Assembly (NCBI RefSeq): GCF_017301735.1
Contig: NZ_CP071090.1
Coordinates: 12,755,001 to 12,819,000 of the forward strand
Length of the DNA: 64,000 bases
Reading direction: 5' to 3'
Origin: Pyxidicoccus parkwaysis
Lineage (GTDB): Bacteria > Myxococcota > Myxococcia > Myxococcales > Myxococcaceae
The notes under the pieces were generated by a model. It searched no databases and had not been told where the DNA came from. It saw only the letters and a program-made list of their open reading frames with translations. The first letter of the stretch is position 1. Each line of letters starts with the position of its first letter. A program made the translations under genes and the position numbers. Shown in pieces: positions 8,704-58,536 of this stretch.

Positions 8704-9696
8704 TTACCCACCCGTCATTCGCCTGAGGAGGCCGCCCAGCCCCTGCGACTTGTTGCGCGGCCCGCCCTGGCCCTGCGTGATGGGCGTGGGGTAGGTGGGG
8801 TAGGGCTCCTCGGTGCCCACTCCCTTTTCCATTGAGTTGGAGACCGGCGGGTGCATCCGTGCGACGGGAGTACTCGGGCTGTGGGAGCCTTCTGCCGCTG
8901 CGTCGCGTGCCTGAGCACTCGGGCTGGCCGGGGCGTCGTTGTTGTCGTTGTGGGCGATGCCCTGGCCTTGCGTCACCGGAGTCACAGGCGCGATGGAGGT
9001 GTCGTTGCTCGCGGGGCCGTGCGTCTCCACGGGAGCCGCGGTGGTGGACTCGTCCGTCAGTGCCATCGCCAGCCGCTTCATGTCCTTCTCCGGGATGTCC
9101 CGAAGGGTGATGAAAAGCTCGCCCAGGTGGTTGCGCGCGTCCACGCGGATGCTGAGCCGGTCCGTGAAGTGCCGCTGGAGGTTGTCACGGTAGCGCTGCA
9201 CGCGGGCCGCGTCGGCTTCCGGCAGTTGCCTGGGCGGCGCGCGCTTGTGCTTCATGGCGCTCTGCAACTCCTCCACGGAGCAGTCCGCGAAGGGCTTGGG
9301 CTGCGGCGCCCCGTTGCTCTGCGGCACCATGATGGGCAGGGAGCCCGGGTCACTCTGTTCCACAGTGAGGCCCTCCAGCTTCGCGTACGCCAGGAGCGTG
9401 TAGAGGTTGCGCATGCCGTACTTCACCGCCACGTCTTCCGTGAAGGAGCGGGCCACCGCCCCGTTCAGTGACAGCACGGCCTGGCTGACCACCTTGACCC
9501 GCTGCTTGAAGAAGTCCGTGGCGTCCCTGAACCCGCCCTTCTGCGCCAGCTCGCTGTCCACGACGTAGTTGTAGAGCCGGCCAATTTGATGGCCGTTTCG
9601 GTGGCCCTGCTCCATGAGCTGAAGGACACGCTCATGTACCTGTTCCAGCGTCAGGTCAGGCGAAGCCGAGGTGTTGTTTCCGGTGGTGTCTTCCAT
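8704..9696 (-). CDS. hypothetical protein of unknown function
   Basis: 330 residues that I do not recognise. The N-terminal 200 residues look globular and helical (LTLEQVHERVLQLMEQGHRN, YGMRNLYTLLAYAKLEGLTV), with a basic segment (PPRQLPEADAARVQRYRDNL) and a short beta/helix stretch (LSIRVDARNHLGELFITLRD). The C-terminal 110 residues are low-complexity and rich in Pro, Ala, Ser, Thr and Asn, with the motif TQGQG twice (VTQGQGIA and ITQGQGGP). There is no signal peptide or membrane helix. The ATG at 9696 follows GAGAAAG. Upstream is a long non-coding stretch with two identical palindromes. Regulation by a palindrome-binding protein is an inference. Confidence 0.7.
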   Translation of the reverse strand: MEDTTGNNTSASPDLTLEQVHERVLQLMEQGHRNGHQIGRLYNYVVDSELAQKGGFRDATDFFKQRVKVVSQAVLSLNGAVARSFTEDVAVKYGMRNLYTLLAYAKLEGLTVEQSDPGSLPIMVPQSNGAPQPKPFADCSVEELQSAMKHKRAPPRQLPEADAARVQRYRDNLQRHFTDRLSIRVDARNHLGELFITLRDIPEKDMKRLAMALTDESTTAAPVETHGPASNDTSIAPVTPVTQGQGIAHNDNNDAPASPSAQARDAAAEGSHSPSTPVARMHPPVSNSMEKGVGTEEPYPTYPTPITQGQGGPRNKSQGLGGLLRRMTGG

Positions 9697-9900
9697 GGGT
9701 GCTTTCTCTGCTGTGCCGCGTGATTGCGACGCGGCAGGGGAGAGCAGGCACCGGGCCAGCGCGGGAGACGCCTGTTTTCGCGACGTTGGCGATGTGCTTC
9801 GTCACAGATTGGTCCAAATCCAAGGCATCCAGTCCTGGCCGCGAGACGGTTGGTCGCAGACGCATCGGGACTCGTACGGGGTCGTCTCTCGCGGGGTGTG

Positions 9901-9918
9901 CTTCTGCACGTGCAGAAG
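9901..9918. promoter_or_regulatory. 18-bp perfect palindrome, copy 1
   Basis: CTTCTGCACGTGCAGAAG is fully self-complementary and identical to copy 2, 171 bp away, while the flanks of the two copies differ. It lies 205 bp upstream of the start at 9696. It looks like a binding site for a dimeric regulator. Confidence 0.55.
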
Positions 9919-10071
9919 TGGAAGGTCTCCCGACCCGCCGGTCATCATCCCCTGCTGGGAAGGCGCATATCGGGCAAGCCCGCTAGAGCGGGTAGATGCG
10001 CGGGCATGTGGCCCGAGTCCCGGCAGGCCCACGCCTCCAGTGTTGAGTGGGAGCCCATTCGCACAGTTCTA

Positions 10072-10089
10072 CTTCTGCACGTGCAGAAG
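10072..10089. promoter_or_regulatory. 18-bp perfect palindrome, copy 2
   Basis: The second exact copy of CTTCTGCACGTGCAGAAG, 376 bp upstream of the start at 9696 and 162 bp beyond the stop of the histidine kinase gene. Symmetry ends at exactly 18 bp in both copies. Two spaced identical operators could allow DNA looping. Confidence 0.55.
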
Positions 10090-10250
10090 CAGAGGCCCGG
10101 CCCCAAGTACCCTCATGCGAGGGGGGCAGACTGGCGGGCAATTGAGGCGGTGCGCCGCGGGGAACCGGACGGCATCACCCGCCGCGAGCCACCAACGCGC
10201 AACAGAGCGCAGGGCGCTTCAATGAATGGACGGACGCACGAGGACTGGCC

Positions 10251-57444: not shown

Positions 57445-58536
<1,092 letters not shown>

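Follow-up and report, generated by a model that had tools for sequence, protein, structure and literature searches.

Palindrome pair, predicted promoter and adjacent gene

The window, as the whole stretch of 64,000 nucleotides analysed here is called, holds a 554-bp non-coding gap (9697-10250) with two identical, exact 18-bp palindromes, CTTCTGCACGTGCAGAAG: palindrome 1, the proximal copy, at 9901-9918, and palindrome 2, the distal copy, at 10072-10089, neither assigned to a strand. Gap, positions and identity agree with the first-pass annotation, as does the end of strict symmetry at 18 bp in both sites; at palindrome 2, near-symmetry reaches 26 bp, a single pair being mismatched (TCTGCTTCTGCACGTGCAGAAGTAGA, minus strand). 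The sites do lie upstream of the ATG at 9696, at distances of 204 and 375 bp instead of the 205 and 376 originally given. A chance origin, already judged unlikely, is further disfavoured by dinucleotide shuffles, in which 0.03 sites were expected and none of 100 held two sites. The 64-kb window contains no further site with up to three mismatches to CTTCTGCACGTGCAGAAG. A single perfect palindrome of the window exceeds the pair in length, the G+C-rich, 22-bp CGCCGCGGTGGCCACCGCGGCG at 58452-58473.

Between palindrome 1 and the gene lies a predicted sigma-54 -24/-12 promoter, TGGCCCGGTGCCTGCT (9743-9758, minus strand), 46 bp before the ATG; the two palindromes stand about 140 (palindrome 1) and 310 bp upstream of the element. 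Such distances are the usual place of sigma-54 enhancers, and the combination of a GG-N10-GC element with upstream palindromes has the appearance of an enhancer-type arrangement. In the leader alignment, TGGC-N8-TGCT is invariant within the genus. Among the homologues described below, 68% carry a strong -24/-12 element (score at least 17) within the final 170 bp before the ATG, usually at a distance of 42-85 bp, compared with 1.4% of shuffles. Because the array is upstream of the promoter and hence outside the mRNA, recognition as DNA is favoured over recognition as RNA. The looping switch suggested in the first-pass annotation fits this geometry, with a sigma-54 promoter between array and gene, while looping itself remains a candidate. 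Just downstream of the sigma-54 box, GTCGCAATCACGCGGC (9716-9735, minus strand) is nearly invariant in the genus and may be a start-region or translational element.

The adjacent gene (8704-9696, minus strand) encodes a 330-aa protein, proposed here as the palindrome-binding protein, which has no sequence match in Pfam, NCBIfam or PDB; a Pfam search of 30 family members likewise gave no match, and no description of the family was found in the literature searched. Homologues occur in 5 of the 27 genomes of the genus and in 17 of 96 genomes of the wider family, with up to 20 paralogues per genome, and a profile search revealed distant members elsewhere in the phylum; relatives that bear them include Pyxidicoccus caerfyrddinensis, Archangium and Hyalangium. 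Searches of phages, plasmids and IMG/VR yielded no family homologue. Paralogues share no neighbour or operon partner beyond abundant kinases, and the unit therefore consists of one gene and its upstream region. One distant homologue (L153) matches DUF3102 (PF11300) partially (E 4e-4, 20.9 bits against a curated cut-off of 24.4), whereas the main members have no match to PF11300; we know of no function for DUF3102.

The AlphaFold model predicts a confident, all-helical N-terminal domain in which helices 59-66 and 72-84 are arranged as a helix-turn-helix, the second being the predicted recognition helix (residues 72-84, codons 9445-9483, minus strand). The structure search gave no PDB match for the N-terminal fold. 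Residues 160-218 (codons 9043-9219, minus strand) are modelled as an alpha-beta-beta-alpha domain resembling the C-terminal dimerisation domain of ParB, although this weak Foldseek match to 5noc (TM 0.57 by target, E 1.3) is not significant; neither by sequence nor by fold was a solved or known family matched. Residues 219-330 are predicted to be disordered. After about 100 such residues, genus members share a C-terminal tip near GLGGLLRRMTGG (8707-8750, minus strand), a possible binding peptide.

Genome-wide occurrence of the palindrome

The 13.2-Mb genome that contains the window (G000) holds three exact copies of CTTCTGCACGTGCAGAAG, including the window pair, and no sites with one or two mismatches; sites with three mismatches number 17, against 68 matches to a reversed control pattern. 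The motif is thus not scattered randomly through coding and non-coding DNA, the finding named in the first-pass annotation as refuting a special role. The third exact copy (G000:C1:9167013-9167030; L001 1501-1518) lies within a polyprenyl-synthetase-like coding sequence and, according to alignment with relatives, arose through substitutions without an insertion. It extends to a 24-bp palindrome, TTGCTTCTGCACGTGCAGAAGCAA.

Other roles proposed for the pair fare less well. A DNA-uptake sequence is excluded, because the copy number is three genome-wide, and a recombination site finds no support in the absence of any recombinase match and of occurrences in plasmids, phages or IMG/VR. A phage or plasmid element was rejected on zero matches in these same collections, and a chromosomal parS on the absence of TGTTNCACGTGNAACA from G000.

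Palindrome arrays beside homologues

Most members of the family have palindromes of their own, often tandem arrays of 2-9 copies with periods of 32-51 bp, located 130-450 bp upstream of the gene. A perfect palindrome of at least 16 bp is found at -430 to -120 in 27 of 67 homologues and in 1.7% of control windows, and the near-palindrome score separates homologue upstream regions from control windows (Mann-Whitney p 6e-22). The letters differ from paralogue to paralogue. The orthologue of P. caerfyrddinensis is preceded by seven copies at 50-51 bp, that of G009 by four copies of ACTTCCGCACGTGCGGAAGT (51-bp period) and that of G026 by nine copies of (A)CCTCTGCACGTGCAGAGG(T) with a period of about 48 bp; Archangium members carry CACTTGTCACCGGTGACAAGTG or CACTTCTCACCGGTGAGAAGTG at 41 bp, and other homologues TCCCAGATATCTGGGA at 32 bp. 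In about one third of the homologues, for the most part divergent members, no palindrome could be recognised.

Conservation in relatives, a check proposed in the first-pass annotation, shows the arrays accompanying the gene: of the 27 genus members, the five that encode the protein are the only ones with arrays of CTTCTGCACGTGCAGAAG or its variants. As far as comparison of sequences can indicate, the palindrome pair is probably a landing place for the product of the gene beside it, which belongs to a large and so far undescribed family of putative bacterial DNA-binding proteins, each with a palindrome private to it.

At one relic locus (L026 9840-10010; G009:C1:3377k), the 5' end of the gene, its leader and one CTTCTG palindrome persist next to a DUF2381 gene, the gene itself having been deleted.

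Covariation of the predicted recognition helix with the half-site

A scan of all residue by half-site position pairs, using base-resolved mutual information, ranked first the pair of residue 76 (Ser in the window protein, codon 9469-9471) and index 3, i.e., position 7 from the dyad (z 6.5), and second that of residue 73 and index 5 (z 4.9); residue 72 with index 1 (z 4.3) is among the top five. All three residues belong to the predicted recognition helix, and the scan maximum was matched in 1 of 180 permutations. In the CT-class sites, which form the main class, Ser76 accompanies T at half-site position 7 in 18 of 18 cases and Thr76 accompanies C in 8 of 8. When residues 66-80, and with them the helix, are left out of the tree, six of six independent switches at residue 76 are concordant, with p 0.031, the smallest attainable value and a descriptive one, because the pair had been selected in these very data. 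Four members outside the scan (L060, L073, L134 and L146) agree on the Ser76 side.

The GTCCGCG site class breaks the residue-76 rule, with seven Thr76 proteins accompanying T, and its register may differ from that of the CT class. Identity-based covariation, lacking base-by-base resolution, gave no localisation to the helix. A pairing of residue 73 with half-site index 4, seen in Archangium, was set aside, as only one of seven independent pairs was informative.

Matching arrays at other loci

All 27 genomes of the genus have kept an ECF sigma-factor gene (assigned by Pfam), and in G022, G009, G026 and G020 its start is preceded by an array at a distance of about 200 bp. The array at this locus is CTTCCG-type in G009 and CCTCTG-type in G026, in each case the type of that genome's own array, while in G020, which has two paralogues, it mixes both letter types. 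Matching arrays in trans occur at the ECF locus only in genomes that encode the protein; the ECF locus of G000, G011 and G019 has none, although G000 has the protein. A third array of G026 is located upstream of a sensor kinase/NtrC-type regulator pair.

In Archangium, four species have an array upstream of sbcD, at 195-204 bp from its start (L250-L252, L243), and in three (L235, L237, L240) an array lies 3' of lexA (named from its translated sequence), between convergent genes. Palindromes agree among arrays while the spacers differ, which indicates selection by a common protein. Distal arrays generally have no sigma-54 promoter, with exceptions at one or two loci (L247, L249), and several lie between convergent genes, such as those 3' of lexA, where promoter control is unexpected.

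Proposed role and alternative explanations

The palindromes are probably (with a rough probability of 0.7) private binding sites of the homodimeric product of the adjacent gene, which would control its own sigma-54 promoter from them and act at a few other loci. The first-pass annotation had offered a dedicated dimeric regulator among several ideas, and this one is well supported: such a regulator is almost certainly the gene that the annotation left unrecognised, judging from sequence comparison, because its homologues bear their own upstream palindromes and residues of the recognition helix covary with the palindrome letters. We infer direct binding from this covariation, and infer likewise the dimer and the autoregulation. 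Mechanistically, the N-terminal helix-turn-helix of each subunit would contact one half-site and the ParB-like C-terminal domain would dimerise the protein; the homodimer, seated on an array in enhancer position 100-450 bp upstream of the sigma-54 promoter, would control its own expression, with array copy number setting avidity, and in trans it would occupy arrays of matching type at a small number of further loci. The simplest mechanism is for the protein to regulate its own gene from the array. It is tempting to go further and suppose that the up to about 20 proteins of a genome form orthogonal protein-palindrome pairs, diversifying by a residue-to-base code, in which each non-AAA+ protein on its enhancer array acts as an adaptor or antagonist of an enhancer-binding protein; this extension is tentative, at odds somewhat below even.

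Promoter control is not the whole story, because sites lie 3' of lexA, and a structural, ParB/Noc-like role therefore stays the main rival to private autoregulation. A chromosome organiser of the ParB/Noc/MatP kind would nucleate on palindrome clusters, bridge or spread, and so organise the nucleoid. The alpha-beta-beta-alpha domain shared with ParB, the appearance of P1 ParB entries among the first hits by E-value (not significant), the clustered, high-copy sites, some of them between convergent genes, and the CACGTG core common to the palindrome and parS all point this way. However, the ParB/Srx N-terminal CTP-binding domain was absent when 30 members were searched against Pfam, the modelled N-terminal domain being all helical, and no conserved ParA or other neighbour was found. 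The sites are few and dispersed over loci, the gene itself is strongly tied to a sigma-54 promoter, and parS TGTTTCACGTGAAACA is not the site found here, the half-site being different (TTCTGCAC). Such an organiser is accordingly considered unlikely.

Two further explanations are considerably less probable than the organiser, and about equally so. The first regards the palindromes as selfish, REPIN/RAYT-like elements that spread through intergenic DNA with the help of the linked gene, in keeping with their family-specific association with one protein gene, their intergenic, often convergent 3' location and their patchy distribution. Yet the protein has no Y1/HUH transposase match in Pfam, the genome-wide count shows few loci instead of hundreds of copies, distal arrays recur at the same orthologous places (ECF, sbcD, lexA) in several species, and the palindromes keep agreeing between arrays of different spacers. 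In the second, the palindromes would be bound by another protein, an AAA+ enhancer-binding protein acting on the sigma-54 promoter, and the adjacent gene would be no more than its target. This would suit the enhancer position of the array relative to the -24/-12 promoter and the usual preference of such activators for palindromic tandem sites, but the palindrome letters vary in step with a helix of the protein that the adjacent gene itself encodes, and sigma-54 promoters are mostly missing at distal arrays. RNA hairpins (type III antitoxin-like repeats, an attenuator or a terminator), suggested by tandem inverted repeats in 32-51-bp units upstream of a small protein gene, are scarcely credible, as the array is upstream of a conserved promoter, the symmetry usually spans the centre where RNA needs a loop, there is no T run and the protein has no toxin match.

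Relation to known systems

As modelled, the family would resemble ParB-parS and Noc-NBS (PMC7383237) in a homodimer whose helix-turn-helix and small C-terminal dimerisation domain read a palindrome, and in the clustering of sites. Paralogous ParB and Noc recognise different palindromes, and a few residues at the interface switch them from one to the other (Jalal et al. 2020, PMC7383237); by analogy, this switching of specificity is the closest studied parallel to the covariation reported here. Unlike ParB/Noc, the present family has no sequence relation to those proteins, no ParB/Srx CTPase domain and no ParA, and a genome can hold many of its paralogues, whose private sites adjoin the genes that encode them, together with a sigma-54 promoter.

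The arrangement, with tandem palindromes lying 100-450 bp ahead of a -24/-12 promoter, is also reminiscent of sigma-54 enhancers (UAS). The AAA+ activators CtcC, FlgR and FleT lack a DNA-binding domain (PMC3162934), and since such activators exist, a DNA-bound partner is conceivable. The covarying protein, in contrast, has a predicted DNA-binding domain and no AAA+ domain (Sigma54_activat was not found in Pfam searches), and beside these activators its role would be that of autoregulator, adaptor or anti-activator. Its proposed site of action is nonetheless one at which ParB-type and enhancer-binding proteins both operate.

Autoregulated one-component repressors of the KorB and TetR types have operators beside their own genes. 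The family shares with them a protein and an operator that lie side by side and coevolve, but no common fold or family was detected, and its arrays comprise up to nine copies that precede the promoter and do not overlie it. With REPIN/RAYT (PMC3116915) it shares family-specific extragenic palindromes linked to one gene, whereas it differs in having no linked Y1/HUH transposase, few copies and conserved orthologous positions.

With dozens of related proteins whose target is visible beside the gene, the evolution of DNA-binding specificity would become directly readable and testable, as in the pairing of Ser76/Thr76 with T/C. The family also suggests that sigma-54 control in myxobacteria includes a component as yet unknown, and it could supply orthogonal protein-operator pairs.

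The nuclease SbcCD acts on hairpins and palindromes, and the recurrence of the Archangium arrays at two DNA-repair genes is possibly a meaningful link to it. An array at L237 2487-2754 (G062:C1:8444486-8444753) consists of seven palindromes at 41 bp that largely alternate between the CACTTGTCG and CACTTCTCG types, as if one array served two paralogues.
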